A stretch of DNA of 64,000 bases from Bifidobacterium actinocoloniiforme DSM 22766 (lineage in GTDB: Bacteria; Actinomycetota; Actinomycetes; Actinomycetales; Bifidobacteriaceae): positions 1,736,001-1,800,000 of the forward strand of contig NZ_CP011786.1 of assembly GCF_001263395.1 (NCBI RefSeq), written 5' to 3'. Position numbers and translations under genes: made by a program. The notes under the pieces are model-generated. The model ran no database searches, was not told the origin of the DNA, and saw only the letters and a program-made list of their open reading frames with translations. Each line of letters starts with the position of its first letter. Position 1 is the stretch's first letter. Shown piece by piece: positions 16,078-58,411 of this stretch.

Positions 16078-16216
16078 CGCGCCTGACCGCAGGCGCTCGC
16101 GAGCGTTCCGGAGGCCAGTAAGGGGTGGCGCTAGACTGGGAATCGTTACATTTCGGAGAGCCGCGCCTGAAAGACTGTCGGAGCGGATGGCTGCAAGCAC
16201 GGGAAAAGGGGTGGTT

Positions 16217-17305
16217 ATGAAGCGGTCGAGGAAAGCGGCCAGTGGACGGGAGCGTGCCTTAGGCCAAGCCGAATCCAGCCTGACTCCTCAGCTCTCACCT
16301 TCCCAAACCTGGCCGTCGCAATCGGCCGAGTCGGCCTCCCGCAGTACGACCAGGCAAGCGCGGATTAGGTTGAACGACCAGTCGGGCGCGTTAATCATCT
16401 ACCTGGTGGTCATGCAGCTGATCGGGCCAGCTGTGGCCGCGGCCCTGATCGTCATCTTGCAGAGCATGCGCAAGCAGATGGTGTCGGTCGATACTGTCGT
16501 CTCGCAGATCGACGGCAAGTACGCAGGGGTGATGAACCTCGTCTGCGCGGCCACCGCTTTCGTCTTCTGGATCGCCACCCACAAGCGTCAGATCGCCGAC
16601 CCGGGCCCCGACGGGGTCTTCCACCGCCGTCTGCGCCGGATGACCCCCTGGGTGCTCCTGGGCTGCATGGCCCTGCTCCTGACCGGCCAGTCCTTGAGCA
16701 CCATCTACGACCAGGGCTTCAACTGGGTCATCCACCGACTGTCTCTCAGGGCCACGACCTCCTCCGAGATGATCGAGGCCGCGTCCGGCTCCACGGCCAT
16801 GTTCCTCTATGTCTCCTTCTTTGGACCGGTCGTCGAGGAAGTGGTTTTCCGGGGCGTGATCATGAACAGCCTCAAGCCCTACGGCAAGGTCTTCGCCATC
16901 ATCACTTCGTCAACCATGTTCGCCTTCTTCCATTCCGACATTTCCCAGGGGCTTTTCGCCTTCTGCATTGGGCTGGTCCTGGGCTATGTGGCCTGCGAGT
17001 ACTCGATTTTCTGGTCCATCCTCCTGCACATAGCGAACAACCTGCTGATTTCCAACCTGGGTTCCATGGCCGTGTCGAGCCTGCCCGGCCCCGCCAAGGA
17101 CTGGGTCGACCCGGTCCTGTTGGTCGGCGGCCTCCTTTTGGGCGCCTTGGTCCTCTACCTGGCCCGGGGGCGCGTCCGTGGCTTCATCCTGGCCAACCGC
17201 GCCAGCAAGGGGATTTACGCCTCCTGGGGCGGCTTGTGGTTCATTGTCTACCTCATCCTGCAAATCCTCGTCACGGCAATGGAGTTCGCGCCGTCTGTGT
17301 CGTGA
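16217..17305 (+). CDS. CPBP-family intramembrane glutamic endopeptidase (second copy)
   Basis: A 362-residue paralogue of the preceding gene. The motifs are EEVVFRG, FAFFH and HIANN, and the two proteins share segments along their full length (for example ADPGPxGVF and YASWG). ATG 16217 follows AAAAGGGG and is preferred to the frame start at 16187. The N-terminal ~60 residues are Ser/Arg/Gln-rich and cytosolic. It probably arose by tandem duplication. A run of 13 C begins one base after the stop codon. Confidence 0.85.
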   Translation: MKRSRKAASGRERALGQAESSLTPQLSPSQTWPSQSAESASRSTTRQARIRLNDQSGALIIYLVVMQLIGPAVAAALIVILQSMRKQMVSVDTVVSQIDGKYAGVMNLVCAATAFVFWIATHKRQIADPGPDGVFHRRLRRMTPWVLLGCMALLLTGQSLSTIYDQGFNWVIHRLSLRATTSSEMIEAASGSTAMFLYVSFFGPVVEEVVFRGVIMNSLKPYGKVFAIITSSTMFAFFHSDISQGLFAFCIGLVLGYVACEYSIFWSILLHIANNLLISNLGSMAVSSLPGPAKDWVDPVLLVGGLLLGALVLYLARGRVRGFILANRASKGIYASWGGLWFIVYLILQILVTAMEFAPSVS

Positions 17306-17306
17306 T

Positions 17307-17319
17307 CCCCCCCCCCCCC
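17307..17319 (+). repeat. Homopolymer run of 13 C
   Basis: Thirteen C in a row start two bases after the TGA of the second CPBP gene and lie about 185 bases before murA. The run is outside every gene I accept. It is one of three runs of 13 or more G/C in the window. Confidence 0.9.
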
Positions 17320-22793: not shown

Positions 22794-25700
22794 TCAAGGT
22801 TGCGTGTGATGAAGGCGGAGTGTATGTGGGCTTTGGCGCTGTTTACGGGCCTTCGAGAGCTGGTAGCCTGCGAGAGTGACCCCTGCGAGACAAGTGAAGG
22901 CGATGAACGTTGTTCCGATGAGCCCGTGGAAGGGGATACTGCCGGCTCGGGGGAGGGTGTAGGGAATGTAGATGTAGGTGAAATCGTGGATGGGGTAGTC
23001 GGTTTGCGCTACGCCATCCAAGGTCCAGGTGACGATGACGGGGACTGGGCCTCCCGAGTCGTATCTGGGCGAGGTGACGTTCCAGGTGCTGGCACCGTCG
23101 TTGGGTGTGGGGCCGCTTTGGGCTGGAGCAGTACCGAACTTGACGGCAGTGATGTTGATGTTGTAGAACATGCCTGTGCTCACGGGGGTGAGGCTTATTT
23201 TGCCTGGCCCGCCTTGCTTATCGCCGAGTTGTCCGTATTGGTTGTCTCCCCAGGTCCAGACTCCACCGGTGGTGTCTACTCCGATGGTGTGTTTCCAACC
23301 GGAGAGGAGTTTGGCGAACGTGGTACCGGGCTTAGGGTTAACCACGATGGGCCGGGTTGGGGTGGTTTGGCTACCGGTACCAAGTTGGCCGGAGGCGTTG
23401 TCGCCCCATGCGTAGATGCTCCCGTTGCTGGCGATGCTCATGGCGCTGTCGCTGCTGGTGGTCACGCTGGTGAAGGTGATACCAGCGGGTAGGGTCGGTT
23501 CGGCTGGTAGTTGCTGATTTGTGGTGGTGCCGTTGCCGAGCTCGTAGTCGTTGTTGTACCCCCACGTGTAAATGCGCCCAGTGTCGCTGATAGCGAGTGA
23601 CCAATCCGCGGTAGCGGTGGCCTGCTTGAAGGTGCTCACGCCAACGGGTAGTTGCACTTGTACGGGCACGGCGCTGCTGCCGCCCACGTTGATGACACTG
23701 GTTCCCAGTTGTCCGAATTGGTTGGACCCCCAACTATAAGCCTGCCCGTTATCTCCGATGCCGATGGAGTGCCCGGCGGCAGCACTGACTTGGGTGAACT
23801 GGTAGACGCCAGCTGGCATCTGCACCGCTACCGGACTGAGCTGGTTAATGGTGGTATTGTCGCCAAGCTGTCCGCTGTTGTTGGCTCCCCACGCATAGGT
23901 GGTACCGTTGTCGCCTATGGCGAGAGTATGGTCTACGCCTGGACTGACCTGCCTGTACGCGCCCACGCCAGCAGGCATGCTGATCGGCAGAGGTTGCAAC
24001 TGGTTATTAGTGGTCCCGAGACCCAATTGACCACTCGTATTAAACCCCCACGCGTACCAGCGGTTATCGCTACCCAGTGCGAACGAGTTGTTAGGGCCTG
24101 CACTGACTTTCAGGAACTTCACCCCGTTTGGCGTGACTGCCTTCGTGGGTTGCAGCCGGCTGGTGATGCTGTTGTCCCCAAGCTGCCCGGCATCGTTTTC
24201 CCCCCACGCGTACAGGTCACCATCAGAGCCGATAGCGAGTGTGTGATACCAACCTGCTGATACTTGGGTAAACTGCACACTTGACGTTGCAGGATGCGGG
24301 GTGATGGTGACACTGGTGCCACCACTGTTAGGCCCTCGATTCGGGTCCATCGTGAACGTGAAGGCTGGTTTTTCCCAACGAGCGGTCAAGGTAATGTTGC
24401 TCGTGACTGGCTCGTTAAACGTGTAGGGCTTGTTGTCGAGGAACCAGCCCACAAACCGATGCCCATTCCAGGATGGTTGCGTTGGCCATGCTGCTTTCGA
24501 GTTTTCCTCCACGTGCTGAGGACTTGGCGTGCTACCAGGAGCGGCACCCAGGTTAAAACTGACAGTAAACGTATCCAAGTAATGGTACTTCAATGTCTCA
24601 TTCGGTTGCGCAACCTCATTCAAGGTCCAACTCACTACCACATCCACATCCCCCGGAGCATGGGGCGGGGTGTTCCCTGTCCAAATACTCGACACATCAG
24701 TCACCGTACCCGGCGTAGCGATACCCCCAAACGTAACCCGAGTAATCCTAATCGGCCCACCCACACGTACCGGAGTACTGCTATTGGTGGTGCTACCGTC
24801 GCCGAGATTCGCGAGTTCACCAAGTCCCCAGCTGTAGGTGTTGCCGTCGCTACCAATAGCGAAAGAGTTCCAGTAGCCGGCTGTGACACTGACAAAGGTT
24901 ACTCCTACTGGTACTTGCACCGTAACTGGTGTTGTAACATTTTCTGAGCTGTTGTTGCCGAGTTCAGTATAGTAGTTGCTTCCCCATGCGTATGTTTTGT
25001 GGTCGCTTCCTATAACGAGGGTGTGCCAGCCGTTGCTGCTGCGTTGTACGATATGCACTCCAGCTGGCATGCGAAGTGTGACCAGTGTTGGCGTGTGTTT
25101 TTCGGCTGTGGGCTCGCTTGGATAGGTTGAGGTTCCGTCCCCATACTGGCCACCTATGCGATTGGCTCCCCATGCGTAGTTGTTGCCGTCATTAGTGGTA
25201 GCGAAGGCTGTGTATCCGCCTGCGGTGATGCTAGTCCATCGAAGGCCGTTAGGAGGGTTTACCGGAAAGGCGGAAGTGCGGTTAGTGGTGTCACCGGTGC
25301 CTAGCTGACCATATTCGTTGTCTCCCCAGGTGTAGATGACGCCATTGTCGCCTAGTGCCATGCTGAAATAGGCAGCTGCGCTGATGCTAATAATGCGAAC
25401 TGTGCCCGGAATGCCAGCAACCAGCGTGGGGCTGGAACGCATTACCGTATCACCAACTCCAAGCTGGCCACCGCCCGAAACGTTGTTAATCGATGTATCG
25501 TTGCAGCCCCACGCGTAGACTTTGCCGTTGTCGCCGATAGCGAGGTTGAAGTCGGCCCCGGCATTGATTTGGGTGAATCGGTTCACGCCTGCGGGTAGTG
25601 GCTGTATTTTGGTGGGAATAAGGCGGTTGTTAGTATCTCCTAAACCCGATTGGCCCCTATTATTCAGGCCCCAAGTGTAGATATAGCCATCGGTGCCTAG

Positions 25701-26106
25701 AGCTATCGAATGTCCGTAAAAGCCTGCGCTTATTTCGGTGAATTTGATGCCTGCTGGTGTTTGTATGCGCACGGGTGCGAGTCGTTGAGTGTTGGTGTCG
25801 TCGCCCAGCTGGCCGTACTGGTTGTCTCCCCAGGCGTAAGCGTTGCCATCATCGCCGAGAGCCAGCGTGTGATAGTAACCAGAACTAATAGTTGTGAATT
25901 TCACGCCACCTATGGTGTAGGGGTTGATGGTAGCCCTTGTGCCTCCGGCGGCAGGGCCTGATTTAGGGGACAGCCGGAAGTGGTTGGAGGTTTCGTCAGC
26001 GCGCACTGGAGTGGGATGGATCAGTGAACTAGCTGCTCCCCCCCCCCCCCAGGACAATCATGGAGATAAGCGCCAGTATGGCGCTTGCTGTGCGAAACCG
26101 TCGCAT
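22794..26106 (-). CDS. LPxAG-anchored RCC1-propeller surface protein, phase-OFF by a G13 run
   Basis: A wall-anchored protein of about 1103 residues when in frame. The signal peptide MRRFRTASAILALISMIVL starts at ATG 26106 after a GAGGAG site, but a G13 run at 26038-26050 shifts the frame and a TAG ends the product after 25 codons. The remaining frame is intact and begins around an internal TTG at 26057. With 12 or 15 G the protein reads through to a cleavage-like PVRADE. Then follow an IPT/TIG-like entry (SPKSGPAAGGT), seven RCC1 blades, the second part of that domain (VTFGG), a Flg_new repeat (FVGWFLDNKPY), a second GPNSGGT entry, seven more blades, an Ig-like end and LPRAG plus a hydrophobic segment and basic tail. 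Binding target unknown. Alternatives are a sequencing error in the run or a true pseudogene. Confidence 0.8.
26038..26050 (-). repeat. G13 run in the signal-peptide codons (probable slippage switch)
   Basis: Thirteen G on the coding strand directly follow codon 18 of the signal peptide. Frame arithmetic shows that 12 or 15 G join the signal peptide to the propeller frame and 13 does not. The paralogue has six G at the matching place. Confidence 0.9.
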
Positions 26107-26473
26107 AATTGCACTCCTCAAACCGTATGTAGTGCCCGGTGGCCCCATTTAAGTTTCTTGCGCGCCTAATCGCAGGCTTGCCGTTCCCCAATCGCCTACG
26201 CGCTTGACACGAACCCCAATTTCCTGAAGCCAGTTTACCATCATTCGCGCAAAAGATAGCTCAAACCCTTGCAGTTTAGGACACAGTCCAGGTTGCTGCC
26301 TTGCGATTCGGGCTGTCTGAGCTGGCGGTGGTTGGCACTGATGCGGTCTGTGCCGGGCGTGTGGGTCCGGCGCTGGCTGGTGTGTGTGGGTCGAGCGCTG
26401 ACGGTGATTGTGATCGGGTGGGGTGCGGTCCGGCCCATTTTGGGGTGGGCCGGACCGCAGGCCTTGGGATCAA
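26107..26473. other. Region between the two RCC1 surface-protein genes
   Basis: This holds the ribosome-binding site (26114-26119) and presumed promoter of the distal gene, and near 26424-26459 the terminator of the proximal gene. No other gene is supported here; long frames crossing the region are shadows. Confidence 0.7.
26424..26459 (-). terminator. Hairpin terminator of the second RCC1 surface-protein gene
   Basis: Perfect 14-bp arms (26424-26437 and 26446-26459, TGCGGTCCGGCCCA and complement) with an 8-base loop lie just after the stop on the minus strand. There is no strong T run. Confidence 0.65.
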
Positions 26474-29400
26474 TCACCTGCCGCTGGTGGTTGTTGTGGT
26501 GGTGGTGGGTTGGTGGGTGTGGTGGTGTTTGCGGGTGATGTGGTGGCTGGTGAGGGTGAGGGCGGTGAGGGTGGTGAGGGTGAGGAGGGTGGCTCCCGCG
26601 AGTTGTTGGGTGGGGGCGCCGCCTGCTTTGGGCAGGGTGTAGTAGTGGGTGTAGTCGTAGGTGAGGGTGTAGTCGGGTTGGGTGGCGCCGTCGAGGGTCC
26701 AGTGGATGGTGACGGTGGCTTGTCCTTCGGGGTGGGTTGGGCTGGTGGTGTCCCAGGTGTGGGTGGTGGGGTTCCAGGTGGGTGTGGGGGCGTTGGTGGG
26801 CTCGAAGGTGGTGCCGGTGATGGTGATGGCGCGTGTGGTTGGGGTGGGGGTGTGTCGTTCGGTGGTGGTGGTGTCGCCGAGTTGGCCGTAGCCGTTGGCT
26901 CCCCAGCTGTAGGCGTGCCCGTCCGTCGCGATGGCGAGGCTGTGCCAGCCGCCGGCGCTGATGGCGGTCCAGGTGGCGGTGCCGTCGGCGGCCGGGCTGG
27001 CGGGCGCGGGCGTGTTGCGGTCGCTGCTGCCGCCGTCGCCGAGCTGGCCGTTGCTGTTCCATCCCCAGCTGTAGGCGTGGCCGTCGCCGCTGATGGCGAG
27101 GCTGTGCCAGCCGCCTGCGCTGATGGCGGTCCAGGTGTCGGTGGGGTTGCCGCTGGCGGGGGCGTGGACGGGCGCGGGCGTGTTGCGGTCGCTGCTGCCG
27201 CCGTCGCCGAGTTGGCCGTTTCTGTTCCATCCCCAGCTGTAGGCGTGCCCGTCCGTCGCGATGGCGAGGCTGTGGTTGGAGCCTGCGCTGATGGTTTTCC
27301 ACGTGTTGGCGGGGTTGCCGCTGTCGGGCGCGTGGACGGGCGCGGGCGTGTTGCGGTCGCTGCTGCCGCCGTCGCCGAGCTGGCCGTTTCTGTTCCATCC
27401 CCAGCTGTAGGCGTGCCCGTCCGTCGCGATGGCGAGGCTGTGGTAGTTGCCTGCGCTGATGGTTTTCCACGTGTTGGCGGGGTTGCCGCTGTCGGGCGCG
27501 TGGACGGGCGCGGGCGTGTTGCGGTCGCTGCTGCCGCCGTCGCCGAGCTGGCCGTTGCTGTTGCGCCCCCAGCTGTAGGCGTGCCCGTCCGTCGCGATGG
27601 CGAGGCTGTGGTAGTAGCCGGCGCTGATGGTTTTCCACGTGTTGGCGGGGTTGCCGCTGGCGGGGGCGTGGACGGGCGCGGGCGTGTTGCGGTCGCTGCT
27701 GCCGCCGTCGCCGAGCTGGCCGTTGCTGTTGCGCCCCCAGCTGTAGGCGTGGCCGTCGCTGCTGATGGCGAGGCTGTGGTAGTTGCCTGCGCTGACGCTG
27801 GTGAACCGCACGCCTGGGGGCGTGTTCACGCGTACGGGCGCGCTGCTGTCGTTGGTGGTGCCGTCGCCGAGCTGGCCGTTGAAGTTGTACCCCCAGGCGT
27901 AGGTGTTGCCGTCGGTGCCGATGGCCAGGCTGTGGTAGGTGCTGGCGCTGACCTGGGTGAACCGCAGGGGCCGCGGCGGGTCGGGGGGCGTGATGTGGAC
28001 GGTGGTGCCGCCGGTGTCCGGGCCCCGGGTGGGGGTCATGGTGAATTGCGGGGTCCTCCATTTGGCGGTCAGGGTCATGTTGGAAGTGACGGGCGTGTTG
28101 AAGTTCCACAGGCTGCCGTCGGGTTTGGCCCACCCGTCGAACCAGTGGCCCGCCCAGGCCGGGTCGGGCTCGGGGTAGGTGATGGGCCGCGGGTCGTCCG
28201 GGTACGAGTACTGGCTGGCGGGCGCCTGGCTGGTGGTGTGCCCGGCGGCGTCGCCCAGTTGGAAGCTGACGGTGTACGCTGTGGCGTACGTGTAGTTCAG
28301 GGTGACCGTGCCGGACTGGTAGTTGGGGCTGGCGACCCTGCCGTTCACGTCGAGGCCGTCGAGATGGTAGGCGACGGTCACGTCGACGGCGCCCGGGGTA
28401 TGCTGGGGCACGTGCATGTCCCGCGCGCCGGTGGTGGCGTTGACGGTCTTACTGGCGACGCTTGCCCCGCCGAAGGTGACGTTGTCGATCACATACCGGG
28501 GCGTGAGCATCGTCGCGGGCTTGCTGTGGGGGTTGGTGGTGCCGTCGCCCAGCTTGCCGTATTCGTTGTATCCCCAGCTGTAGGCGTGGCCGTCCGAGTC
28601 GAGGGCCAGGCTGTCATAGTAGGCTGCGCTGATTTGGGTGAAGCGCGCGCCGGCTGGCGCGTGCACGAGCACCGGTTTGCTGCTGTTGCTAGTGGTTTCG
28701 TCGCCCAGCTGGCTGAGCATGTTGTTTCCCCATGCGTAGGTGTTGCCGTCCGATCCGATGGCCAGGCTGTGGTAGAAGCCTGCGCTGATTTGGGTGAAGC
28801 GCGCGCCGGCTGGCGTGTGCACGCGCACCGGTTTGTTGCTGTCGCTACCGGTTTCGTCGCCCAGCTGGCCGTAAGTGTTGTATCCCCATGCGTAGGTGTT
28901 GCCGTCCGATCCGATGGCCAGGCTGTGGTAGTAGCCTGCGCTGATTTGGGTGAAGCGCGCGCCGGCTGGCGTGTGCACGCGCACCGGTTTGTTGCTGTCG
29001 CTACCGGTTTCGTCGCCCAGCTGGCGGAACACGTTGCTTCCCCATGCGTAGGTGTTGCCGTCCGATCCGATGGCCAGGCTGTGCCAGTTGCCTGCGCTGA
29101 TTTGGGTGAAGCGCACGCCGGCTGGCGCGTGCACGCGCACCGGTTTGCTGCTGTCGCTAGGGGTTTCGTCGCCCAGCTTGCCGTAGCTGTTGCTTCCCCA
29201 AGCGTAGGTGTTGCCGTCGGAGCCGATGGCGAGGCTGTGATCGTTGCCTGCGCTGATTTGGGTGAAGGTCACGCCGGTTGGCGCGTGCACGCGCACCGGT
29301 TTGCTGCTGTCGCCACCGGTTTCGTCGCCCAGCTGACCGGAGTCGTTGCTTCCCCAGGCGTAGGTGTTGCCGTCCGAGCCGATGGCCAGGCTGTACTCGT

Positions 29401-29815
29401 AGCCTGCGCTGATTTGGGTGAAGCGCACGCCGGCTGGCGCGTGCACTCGCGTGGGCGTGCTGTGGGTGCTGCGGTCGGTGGCGGTGTCGTCGCCTAACTG
29501 GCCAACGAGGTTGCCTCCCCATGCGTAGGTGTTGCCGTCCGAGCCGATGGCCAGGTTATGCCAGCAGCCTGCGCTGATTCGGGTGAAGCGCAGGTTGGTT
29601 GGCGGGGCTGGTGGTGTGAGTGTGGCGGTGGCGTCTTGGTTGGCGGGGCCTTTGGTGGGGGTGAGGGTGAAGCCGTTCACGGTTTGCGAGGCGGGGGCTC
29701 CTGATCGGGTCAGGTGGTTGGGTTCAGCGTGGGCGGGCCGGGCCGCCGCGTTGCCCCCCAGGAGGATCATGGCCAGGGCCGCGAATGCGGCGCTGGCGGC
29801 GCGGAAACGACTCAT
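26474..29815 (-). CDS. LPxAG-anchored RCC1-propeller surface protein (in frame)
   Basis: A 1113-residue wall-anchored protein, intact. Its signal peptide MSRFRAASAAFAALAMILLG ends near PAHAEP, and ATG 29815 has a GGAGGGGG site. An IPT/TIG-like entry (TPTKGPANQDATATLTPP, about 52-69) leads to seven RCC1 blades of ~52 residues (about 77-442), then NVTFGGAS and further strands of the Ig-like domain to ~510, a Flg_new/InlB-type repeat (HWFDGWAKPDG, about 512-586), a second entry (TPTRGPDTGGTTV), seven more blades of 52-56 residues, a closing Ig-like part, and LPKAG at 1061 with a hydrophobic segment and a His/Lys/Arg tail. RCC1 proteins form seven-bladed propellers, so each block should make one whole propeller. 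Ligand unknown; host attachment is only a guess. No sortase gene is in the window. Confidence 0.85.
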   Translation of the reverse strand: MSRFRAASAAFAALAMILLGGNAAARPAHAEPNHLTRSGAPASQTVNGFTLTPTKGPANQDATATLTPPAPPTNLRFTRISAGCWHNLAIGSDGNTYAWGGNLVGQLGDDTATDRSTHSTPTRVHAPAGVRFTQISAGYEYSLAIGSDGNTYAWGSNDSGQLGDETGGDSSKPVRVHAPTGVTFTQISAGNDHSLAIGSDGNTYAWGSNSYGKLGDETPSDSSKPVRVHAPAGVRFTQISAGNWHSLAIGSDGNTYAWGSNVFRQLGDETGSDSNKPVRVHTPAGARFTQISAGYYHSLAIGSDGNTYAWGYNTYGQLGDETGSDSNKPVRVHTPAGARFTQISAGFYHSLAIGSDGNTYAWGNNMLSQLGDETTSNSSKPVLVHAPAGARFTQISAAYYDSLALDSDGHAYSWGYNEYGKLGDGTTNPHSKPATMLTPRYVIDNVTFGGASVASKTVNATTGARDMHVPQHTPGAVDVTVAYHLDGLDVNGRVASPNYQSGTVTLNYTYATAYTVSFQLGDAAGHTTSQAPASQYSYPDDPRPITYPEPDPAWAGHWFDGWAKPDGSLWNFNTPVTSNMTLTAKWRTPQFTMTPTRGPDTGGTTVHITPPDPPRPLRFTQVSASTYHSLAIGTDGNTYAWGYNFNGQLGDGTTNDSSAPVRVNTPPGVRFTSVSAGNYHSLAISSDGHAYSWGRNSNGQLGDGGSSDRNTPAPVHAPASGNPANTWKTISAGYYHSLAIATDGHAYSWGRNSNGQLGDGGSSDRNTPAPVHAPDSGNPANTWKTISAGNYHSLAIATDGHAYSWGWNRNGQLGDGGSSDRNTPAPVHAPDSGNPANTWKTISAGSNHSLAIATDGHAYSWGWNRNGQLGDGGSSDRNTPAPVHAPASGNPTDTWTAISAGGWHSLAISGDGHAYSWGWNSNGQLGDGGSSDRNTPAPASPAADGTATWTAISAGGWHSLAIATDGHAYSWGANGYGQLGDTTTTERHTPTPTTRAITITGTTFEPTNAPTPTWNPTTHTWDTTSPTHPEGQATVTIHWTLDGATQPDYTLTYDYTHYYTLPKAGGAPTQQLAGATLLTLTTLTALTLTSHHITRKHHHTHQPTTTTTTTSGR
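27013..27852 (-). repeat. Tandem 168-bp repeats encoding RCC1 blades of the second propeller
   Basis: The same anchor sequence recurs at 27013, 27181, 27349, 27517 and 27685, an exact 168-bp period (56 codons). Units are nearly identical in DNA, differing mainly at the positions that vary between blades. Confidence 0.9.
28539..29474 (-). repeat. Tandem 156-bp repeats encoding RCC1 blades of the first propeller
   Basis: An anchor around GTTTCGTCGCCCAGCTGG recurs every 156 bases (28695, 28851, 29007, 29163, 29319). The boundaries of the array are approximate. Confidence 0.85.
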
Positions 29816-29838
29816 TGCCCCCTCCAAAACAGGCTGGC

Positions 29839-29866: not shown

Positions 29867-29991
29867 ATGAAAAAGTGTGTTGTTGGTATTCGGGTGGTGC
29901 GCGGCAGAACAAAACTCTCCAGCCAGTTCAGGGCAGCAAAACCCATTTTCTGATTATTAAGTTTAGCACAACTGTGGCGGGTTGAGGCAAA

Positions 29992-30014
29992 GTGGCGGTG
30001 GCGTCTTGGTTGGC
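29992..30014 (-). repeat. Remnant matching the N-terminal codons of the RCC1 surface protein
   Basis: These 23 bases are identical to 29622-29644, which encode the ANQDATAT segment of the IPT/TIG-like entry. No frame continues from this copy. Confidence 0.6.
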
Positions 30015-30364
30015 ATGCCCGCTGGTGGGGTGGACGGCGCCTGCCTGCCGCTGCCCCTGAACATGATGGGCACGATGATGGGGTTCTCGGCCTCAAGCAA
30101 GTTTACGCCCCGTCAGATCCAAGGAGCGCAGCAAGCCGTCCTGCACCGTTGCTCCAGGCTCAATAGCTGCGGGAATTACGCGCTGCGGGAGTCGGTGTAG
30201 TCGTGGGTGAGGAGCGAAGCGCCTGATGCGCTCCGGGGCATGTCCGAGAACATGATTGGCTGCGTTACTTATCGCTTTGTGTGTTAAAAAGGTGACTTGA
30301 AGAGTCCTTATGAATCGAATATTTGATGTTACAGTAGAATATATGGATAAATAAGCTCAATATA

Positions 30365-56399: not shown

Positions 56400-58310
56400 T
56401 CAAGCCTTCCCTTGCTGCTCGGGCCGCGGTGCCTGGCCGTCGGCCCCGTGGGTTGAGCCCTGGGCCGCCAGCGGGGTGACACCCGGCCGGTAGACGATTT
56501 CGCTGTTCGAGGCGCCCGGGGGCACGACCGGCCACACCTGGGCATCCTTCCAGACGCGCATGTCGATGAGGACCGGCCGGTCGTTGACGGCCAAGGCCCG
56601 CTCGATCGCGCCGGTGACCTCCTGGCGGTTGCTGGCCCTGATGCCAAGGCAGTCGTAGGATTCGGCCAGCTTGACGAAGTCCGGCACCGGCAGCCCCGGG
56701 CCGTCCGCCGGGCCGGCTGCGCCGGAAGCCAGGTCGCTCAGGATGTGGTGGTCCCCGTAGAAGAGGGTCTGCCACTGGCGAATCAGGCCGTAGGAGGCGT
56801 TGTCGAGGATTGCGATTTTGAGGGGGAGTCCCTCCTGGCGGGCCACGGCCAGCTCGCCGCTGGAGGCCTGGAAGCCGCCGTCGCCCTCGATCAGCCAGAC
56901 CGGACGGGAGCCTGCGACGCCCACTGTCGCGCCGATCGCGGCCGGTAGCCCGAAGCCCATGGTCCCCATGCCGCAGGAGGAGATGAAGGAGCCAGGGAGC
57001 TCGAAGTCCAGGAAGAGGCTGGCCCACATCTGATGCTGGCCTACGTCCGTGACCCATAGGGTGTCCGGCGAGGCCAGGCGGCCCAGCTCCTGAATGGCCC
57101 ACTGCGGCTCGACCTGGCCGTCGGGGGCCGGGTCGTAGGTCGATGGGAACCGCGAGCGCCAGGCGTCGATCTGCCGCCACCAGGGGGCCAAGTCGGTTCG
57201 GCCCAGGCGCTCTTGGACGCGGGGGAACTCCCGGTTCAGGTCGGTCAGCACTTGGGCAGCATCGCCTACGATAGGCACGTCAACGGTCCGGTTCTTGCCG
57301 ATTTCGGCCGGGTCGATGTCAATGTGGATCACCTTGGCGGCAGGGGCGAAACTCTCCAGGTCGCCGGTCACCCGGTCGTCGAAGCGGGCGCCGACCGCCA
57401 GCAGGAGGTCGCACTCCTGCATGGCGCCGTTCGCCGCCACTGTGCCATGCATACCGGGCATGCCGAGCACGTGCTGGTCGCTGTCAGGCACGATCCCGCG
57501 GGCGGATAGGGTGGTCGTGACCGGGGCGCCGGTCAGCTTCGCCAGCTGCGCCACCTGCTCGGAGGCGTGGGCCCGGGTCGCGCCTCCGCCCACGTAGATC
57601 ACCGGCCGGTACGCGCGGGCCAGGAGTTCGGCCGCGTCCTGGAGCATGTGCCCGTGGGCCTTGGTGGTGGGTTTGTAGCCCGGCAGAATCATCCGCTGGG
57701 GCCAGGAATAAGCCATGCTTTGGGTTTGGGCGGTGTAGGGCAAGTCGATCAACACCGGGCCAGGCCGTCCGCTGAGGGCCACATAGTAGGCCTCGGTCAG
57801 CACGCGGGGGATGTCCTGGGCCTGGGTGACCAGGTAGGAGTGCTTGACCACTGGGTAGGTCATGCCCAGTATGTCCGCCTCCTGGAAGGCGTCCGTGCCC
57901 ATGGCCTCGGCCCCCACTTGGCCGCTGACCACTATCAGGGGCACCGAGTCGCGGGCCGCCTCCGCGATGGGGGTCACCATATTCGTGGCCCCTGGCCCGG
58001 AGGTGACCAGGCAGACACCCGGCTGGCCGACGGCCAACGCATAGCCTTCAGCGGCCTGACCGGCGGCCTGCTCGGTGCGGGTCAGGACGAAGCGGAACTT
58101 CGTGTCTGGGCCGATCGCGTCGAAAGTCGGCAGAATCTGGCCGCCGGGCAGGCCGAAGACCACCTTGACGCCCAAGTCCTCCAAGGAGCGGACGAGGGCC
58201 TGGGCCCCGGTCATCGGCTCGCCGGCGGGCTCCGCATCGCGCGCGGTGTCTTTGTCTGACGGCTCCTTGGGAACCGAGTTGAATGCTTGCAGAGGTGTCG
58301 GCAGTGCCAT
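56400..58310 (-). CDS. ilvB: Acetolactate synthase large (catalytic) subunit
   Basis: A 636-residue thiamine diphosphate enzyme that makes acetolactate/acetohydroxybutyrate, the first common step to valine, leucine and isoleucine. The catalytic Glu region (FVLTRTEQAAGQAAEGYA) is N-terminal, and the ThDP motif GDGGFQ...NN is in the C-terminal third (ending IAILDNASYG). The start is ATG 58310 after GATAGGAG; a TTG just before it is not used. It lies downstream of rnc. Confidence 0.95.
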   Translation of the reverse strand: MALPTPLQAFNSVPKEPSDKDTARDAEPAGEPMTGAQALVRSLEDLGVKVVFGLPGGQILPTFDAIGPDTKFRFVLTRTEQAAGQAAEGYALAVGQPGVCLVTSGPGATNMVTPIAEAARDSVPLIVVSGQVGAEAMGTDAFQEADILGMTYPVVKHSYLVTQAQDIPRVLTEAYYVALSGRPGPVLIDLPYTAQTQSMAYSWPQRMILPGYKPTTKAHGHMLQDAAELLARAYRPVIYVGGGATRAHASEQVAQLAKLTGAPVTTTLSARGIVPDSDQHVLGMPGMHGTVAANGAMQECDLLLAVGARFDDRVTGDLESFAPAAKVIHIDIDPAEIGKNRTVDVPIVGDAAQVLTDLNREFPRVQERLGRTDLAPWWRQIDAWRSRFPSTYDPAPDGQVEPQWAIQELGRLASPDTLWVTDVGQHQMWASLFLDFELPGSFISSCGMGTMGFGLPAAIGATVGVAGSRPVWLIEGDGGFQASSGELAVARQEGLPLKIAILDNASYGLIRQWQTLFYGDHHILSDLASGAAGPADGPGLPVPDFVKLAESYDCLGIRASNRQEVTGAIERALAVNDRPVLIDMRVWKDAQVWPVVPPGASNSEIVYRPGVTPLAAQGSTHGADGQAPRPEQQGKA

Positions 58311-58330
58311 CAAGCTCCTATCCCCTCGTT

Positions 58331-58396: not shown

Positions 58397-58411
58397 GGGG
58401 GGGGGGGGGGG
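58397..58411. repeat. Homopolymer run of 15 G (C on the ilvB strand)
   Basis: Fifteen consecutive G lie between the end of rnc and the start of ilvB. It is outside both coding regions and about 60 bases upstream of the ilvB -10 box. Confidence 0.9.

Follow-up and report, generated by a model that had tools for sequence, protein, structure and literature searches.

How are the RCC1 repeats of two tandem surface-protein genes of Bifidobacterium actinocoloniiforme DSM 22766 built into their proteins, and why do the leader and the repeats of one of these genes lie in different reading frames? The genes, here termed A and B, are both encoded on the minus strand of the window, a 64,000-nucleotide stretch at positions 1,736,001-1,800,000 of a 1.83-Mb single-contig genome. 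Between the signal peptide and the LPxAG sorting signal, both encode two modules of seven blades with a TIG half on either side, and Flg_new lies between the modules. Alignments and a predicted structure together support a reading in which each TIG domain, a fold of the immunoglobulin (Ig) type, holds a closed RCC1 propeller of seven blades in the loop from its third to its fourth strand. The best explanation of the locus, with a probability of roughly 0.65, is a repertoire of wall-anchored binding proteins that are phase-variable and recombine. The features are as follows, numbered from the first nucleotide of the window.

26474..29815, minus strand: gene B, intact, 1113 amino acids; signal peptide, TIG1 (propeller 1), Flg_new, TIG2 (propeller 2), LPKAG sorting signal (list of open reading frames (ORFs), Pfam, motif count, AlphaFold2 model)
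29726..29815, minus strand: gene B signal peptide MSRFRAASAAFAALAMILLGGNAAARPAHA, with G6 only at the tract site and no switch (sequence)
29591..29680, minus strand: gene B TIG1 N-terminal half, beginning VNGFTLTPTKGPANQDATATLTPP (alignments)
28496..29590, minus strand: gene B propeller 1, seven RCC1 blades (28 strands in the model; UVR8-like fold)
28286..28495, minus strand: gene B TIG1 C-terminal half, YVIDNVTFGG... (alignments, model)
28052..28285, minus strand: gene B Flg_new or InlB B-repeat-like linker (alignment to the gene A segment, which scores 40.1 bits with Pfam Flg_new)
27965..28051, minus strand: gene B TIG2 N-terminal half (alignment)
26831..27964, minus strand: gene B propeller 2, seven RCC1 blades (model, UVR8-like fold)
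26642..26830, minus strand: gene B TIG2 C-terminal half (alignment, model)
26477..26641, minus strand: gene B LPKAG sorting motif, hydrophobic stretch and basic tail (sequence; three sortase genes in the genome)
22794..26106, minus strand: gene A, ATG to stop; a G13 tract splits the leader from the RCC1 frame, OFF as assembled (sequence)
26038..26050, minus strand: phase-variation candidate, G13 (C13 on the plus strand) within the gene A signal-peptide codons (sequence; same site in five paralogues)
25902..25988, minus strand: gene A TIG1 N-terminal half, beginning SNHFRLSPKSGPAAGGTRATINPY (joined flanks, Pfam TIG 25.7 bits)
24753..25901, minus strand: gene A propeller 1, seven RCC1 blades (Pfam, motifs, alignment)
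24579..24752, minus strand: gene A TIG1 C-terminal half, IRITRVTFGG... (Pfam TIG positions 33-82)
24363..24578, minus strand: gene A Flg_new, a Listeria-Bacteroides repeat (Pfam, 40.1 bits, E = 3.9e-10)
24276..24362, minus strand: gene A TIG2 N-terminal half (alignment; joined flanks 15.8 bits, under the cut-off)
23163..24275, minus strand: gene A propeller 2, seven RCC1 blades (Pfam, motifs, alignment)
22962..23162, minus strand: gene A TIG2 C-terminal half (alignment)
22797..22961, minus strand: gene A LPRAG sorting motif, hydrophobic stretch and basic tail (sequence)

The original prediction counted seven blades in all four RCC1 blocks, and this count holds. Pfam RCC1 matches are significant in the two proteins (E = 2e-142 and 5e-180), with 7+7 [YW]xWG motifs in gene B and 7+7 blade motifs in gene A. 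An AlphaFold2 model of gene B (mean predicted local distance difference test score, pLDDT, 87.3) contains two closed propellers, each with 28 strands (3 + 6x4 + 1), which in the model make up seven four-stranded blades with a Velcro closure. Because the first and last strands fall in the same blade, this topology would bring the ends of the roughly 365-383-residue propeller insert close together, as insertion into a loop requires. The closest solved structures to the gene B propellers are chains of UVR8 (template modelling score 0.93 on the target, 30-33% identity) in a Foldseek search whose list for the whole model was filled by propellers and is uninformative on the Ig part. The Pfam search also recovers Flg_new in A; a full TIG match occurs in neither intact protein, and Flg_new in B stays under threshold.

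The nesting of each propeller within a TIG domain, also proposed originally, is supported by four kinds of evidence. First, against a Pfam TIG profile of 84 positions with a cut-off of 20.9 bits, the intact proteins reach only 12.2 bits in A (C-terminal part only) and nothing in B. When the propeller is removed from module 1 of gene A and its flanks are joined, the score is 25.7 bits over positions 6-82, as against 14.3 bits for the C-terminal half alone; the joined flanks of one B. mizhiense module score 24.2 bits. In an alignment of 24 proteins, each of the 48 modules has TIG-like flanks on its two sides. Most matches within RCC1 ORFs in a genus-wide six-frame TIG search begin at profile position 28-44, which places the break in the domain there.

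Second, a natural relative with an empty site exists. The locus L172 (G001:C1:468163-470430) encodes an uninterrupted TIG1 that matches from profile position 6 to 84 (23.4 bits in the six-frame search, 18.1 bits with hmmscan), followed by Flg_new and then a propeller-bearing TIG2. Third, in an unguided MAFFT alignment of the L172 segment with 19 intact modules, almost the entire propeller falls in a single gap, at residue 27-30 of the empty TIG. Fourth, the predicted strand order agrees between the L172 segment (model pLDDT 92.6; strands 6-9, 12-14, 19-25 / 31-38, 41-43, 45-49, 52-57, 63-73, 81-88) and the flanks in the gene B model (19-22, 25-27, 32-37 / propeller / 408-418, 426-428, 435-439, 445-458, 464-481). 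The empty TIG matches EBF3 (Z 9.3, root-mean-square deviation (rmsd) 3.5, 82 aligned), Met (Z 9.1, rmsd 2.2, 73 aligned) and CAMTA1 (Z 8.9, rmsd 3.4, 83 aligned), and further Ig-like chains tie with these. It resembles the IPT/TIG domains of EBF, plexin, Met and CAMTA1 at a Z of about 9, whereas the domain in the window proteins is broken by a propeller at profile position about 28-30.

One result counts against nesting: joined flanks remain under the cut-off in three of the four window modules (15.8 bits for module 2 of gene A, nothing for both modules of gene B), and the sequence by itself gives no proof of nesting for each module. That the flanks are independent linkers and not halves of one domain would fit these gene B scores and the lack of a full Pfam TIG in the intact proteins, but it is very improbable given the natural empty homologue, the unguided alignment and the agreement in strand order. 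If the propeller is nested in this manner, then the two TIG halves are expected to contact each other directly. The nested TIG-propeller shows, on this evidence, the carriage of a complete 365-383-residue domain in an Ig loop.

The proposed duplication of this module around a Flg_new repeat in a wall-anchored protein also agrees with the Pfam matches, the alignments and the LPKAG and LPRAG signals. Flg_new scores 40.1 bits in gene A against a Pfam cut-off of 27; the gene B segment is under that threshold yet aligns with it column by column. The Flg_new repeat of L172 matches the InlB B-repeat structure 2y5p (Z 9.7, rmsd 1.9, 68 residues, 32% identity), a likeness of fold, whereas the window proteins use a single such repeat as the linker between two TIG-propeller modules. 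The parts needed for sortase anchoring (signal peptide, LPxxG motif, hydrophobic stretch and basic tail) are complete in B and also in A, where the leader is in another frame, and the genome has three sortase genes. Both A and B are accordingly predicted to be sortase-anchored surface proteins. Gene B has no internal stop and starts at ATG 29815; a TTG start at 29827 in the ORF list was set aside as merely the longest possible one.

What the propellers might present can be judged from the variation among blades. In 359 aligned blade cores of 32 residues, five positions have an entropy of 3.4-3.8 bits: positions 8-9 (SAGxxHS), 25, 27 and 28 (WGxNxxGQLG). These positions were first chosen by eye in gene B and then tested across the family. 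The ratio of nonsynonymous to synonymous differences (pN/pS; uncorrected proportions, 89 close neighbouring blade pairs) is 0.51/0.31 at the five positions versus 0.07/0.17 elsewhere, and the scaffold positions are under purifying constraint. UVR8 has its GWRHT motif, which belongs to the dimer interface, at the place of blade positions 8-9, and these are the most variable. The two loops that carry the five positions, A-B and C-D, should by the RCC1 topology point to the same face of the propeller, and the 35 variable positions per propeller are predicted to form one exposed binding face. UVR8, with its seven RCC1 blades, is the closest solved fold, but it is a free intracellular photoreceptor; UVR8-like photoreception was rejected for the window family because the tryptophan (GWRHT) positions are hypervariable.

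The second question concerns the leader of gene A, which reads MRRFRTASAILALISMIVLGGGG and meets a stop soon after; the RCC1 frame resumes beyond the G13 tract in a different frame. Neither the tract nor the frame break had been noticed in the original prediction. As assembled, gene A would be OFF (G13) and gene B locked ON (G6). Six of the seven RCC1 genes of this genome have G11-G13 in their leader codons, the exception being gene B. Among 99 RCC1 frames from 20 genomes with the 5' end present, 58 have G10-G15 at the leader, compared with 6 of 251 other ORFs from the same regions (Fisher p = 3.5e-32), and two of these six resemble leaders of the RCC1 kind. The tract lengths are 10 (five genes), 11 (17), 12 (24), 13 (seven), 14 (three) and 15 (two); tracts on the C strand occur in 3 of the 99 frames. 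Sequences simulated from the window with an order-1 model hold 0-2 tracts of at least 10 nucleotides, against three observed, so that a lone tract proves little and the recurrent position is the evidence.

The assembled state of the 58 tract-bearing genes, called with a simple hydrophobicity rule for the signal peptide, is in frame (ON) for 17 and out of frame (OFF) for 41. In most OFF genes the RCC1 frame is open for 1000+ codons to the sorting signal, and the tract is the sole lesion, at one site. Tract length is unequal in 12 of 21 orthologue-like pairs (upstream flanks at least 86% identical, downstream at least 77%). Three genes on G006:C1 (1068-1077 kb) have G13, G15 and G14 at sites about 4 kb apart, one length per frame. 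In the group of the window genome the signal peptide itself contains the tract, and in the asteroides-like group the tract comes just after it; the leaders differ in sequence, which points to gain or retention of the tract on more than one occasion. RCC1 arrays with the asteroides-type leader are found on G020:C2 and C3 and in the same region of G006:C1, and the leader of L172 also holds a G11 tract.

Three points weigh against a switch of this kind. The 58 tracts are not independent, since paralogues share ancestry, and the Fisher p overstates the evidence; G-tract lengths in assemblies are error-prone; and the asteroides-like group is dominated by G12, an OFF length, an outcome expected of a purely random three-state switch only under selection or assembly bias. 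The last of these perhaps reflects the growth of isolates in culture.

Other G-tracts of the genome are mostly intergenic or in short or doubtful ORFs, and a second clear class of switch was rejected on these grounds. Two are recorded here from the window. An ilvB-like acetolactate synthase ORF (56400-58313, minus strand) has a G15 tract a short way upstream, at 58397-58411, which may affect its expression. A C13 tract at 17307-17319, upstream of a MurA-like ORF, stands directly where the ORF of a CPBP-like membrane protein (16187-17305, plus strand) ends.

Relatives are widespread, with RCC1 matches in 22 of 27 genomes of the genus; among the named relatives are B. asteroides, B. mellis, B. 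mizhiense, B. polysaccharolyticum and B. xylocopae. An exact-match search among paralogues found that L040, the paralogue at 57 kb (G000:C1:55488-58114), has a 976-bp block in common with the gene at 1191 kb and a 1418-bp block in common with the contig-end gene. With exact blocks from two different genes, L040 reads as a mosaic of two other paralogues; it has also lost blades (9 motifs, 876 amino acids). Exact blocks of 254-408 bp are common to four paralogues and lie mid-gene, by position around the Flg_new/TIG linker. The contig G000:C1 begins and ends inside an RCC1 gene (L039, L044); when the ends are joined, the frame is broken and a short stretch is duplicated, so that a clean closure of the assembly at this point is improbable. 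Upstream of gene B, the relic of a third TIG N-terminal half (HPTSGHANQDATATLPQPA; 29976-30037, minus strand) is 76% identical to that of gene B, lies where there is no intact ORF, and is probably what remains of another RCC1 gene.

The statement that these proteins match no described family is only partly right. The RCC1 family was reported in B. asteroides in 2012 with 19 copies (PMC3447821), and in 2015 bee bifidobacteria were described with 7-24 copies that have 2-4 domains, each with about seven repeats, together with Flg_new and LPxTG (PMC4449606). Ten RCC1 proteins were reported for B. actinocoloniiforme, and diversification of the family was already proposed (PMC3447821, PMC4449606). 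A and B belong to this family, sharing its RCC1 and Flg_new domains, C-terminal sorting signal and many diverging copies. The two papers do not mention TIG halves, nesting, hypervariable positions, a homopolymer, slippage or a phase switch. What is new relative to them is the nesting, the hypervariable positions in two loops and the leader G-tract. A search of the open-access literature for RCC1 with phase variation, IPT TIG or LPXTG found nothing beyond the known papers, and an earlier description elsewhere is possible. An NCBIfam search assigned no family to the window proteins, and an Rfam search gave no RNA match.

A close parallel for the tract is known from the sortase pili of B. breve UCC2003, in which a G10-G11 tract lies between the secretion signal and the rest of a sortase-anchored surface protein, is turned ON by replication slippage and has its ON state enriched in vivo (2022; PMC9187656). 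In both systems a leader G-tract parts the secretion signal from the anchored protein, but the pili are a pilin operon with one or two loci per genome, and the propeller genes form a family in which each genome has several tracts. The pili paper mentions neither RCC1 nor B. asteroides.

How well a switched repertoire of binding proteins explains the locus depends on four alternatives. Phase variation commonly serves phage evasion, and the variable faces could be phage decoys or inhibitors of secreted enzymes in place of adhesins, with variation and switching serving phage escape. The secreted bacterial inhibitor BLIP-II, which is RCC1-like (cited in PMC3447821), is a precedent; sortase anchoring on a TIG/B-repeat stalk is however the usual build of an adhesin, and no link to phages was found, although no search was aimed at one; we regard this alternative as rather unlikely. 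Long G runs are also slippery for polymerases and ribosomes, and transcriptional or translational slippage could give constant partial expression, with the tract tuning a level and not acting as a switch. This is improbable because the like tract of B. breve is an ON/OFF switch that works by replication slippage (PMC9187656) and because orthologues differ in tract length.

Slightly less probable again is that the tracts are assembly or sequencing errors and all genes are simply ON. Homopolymers do sequence poorly, and Penno et al. found true G-tract lengths unlike those of the deposited genome (PMC9187656). Errors nevertheless shift length by about a base and cannot account for tracts of at least 10 nucleotides that recur at the same codons of 58 out of 99 genes across most of the 20 genomes; the rarity of C-strand tracts (3 of 99) and gene B, in which a G6 leader works, argue in the same direction. 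A reading of the out-of-frame copies as pseudogenes in decay within a growing repeat family, for which the 41 OFF genes and the relic TIG fragment upstream of gene B might speak, is more doubtful still, since most OFF genes are open to the sorting signal with a single lesion at one site and the scaffold positions of the family are kept under purifying constraint.

Under the favoured reading as a phase-variable repertoire, the TIG/B-repeat chain would be a stalk that holds the propellers off the cell wall. Replication slippage in the G-tract would switch every gene ON or OFF independently of the others, and propellers and blades would be shuffled by recombination among paralogues. A population could then show ever-changing binding surfaces to the insect gut, facing host glycans, neighbouring bacteria or phages. 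We infer both the switching and the ligand binding. An antibody-like surface repertoire of bee-gut bifidobacteria, in which several to dozens of propeller genes, each propeller with 35 hypervariable face positions, slip independently and are reshuffled through shared TIG/B-repeat linkers, is a more tentative proposal with somewhat less than an even chance of being correct.

If the reading is true, a harmless symbiont of insects would possess a contingency system such as is mostly discussed for pathogens, on a propeller scaffold with a programmable face. Many OFF genes would be invisible to annotation, where the called frame is without a signal peptide. The propellers would offer a natural scaffold for the engineering of binders, and the system would help to account for the diversity of strains in bee guts and for host specificity there.

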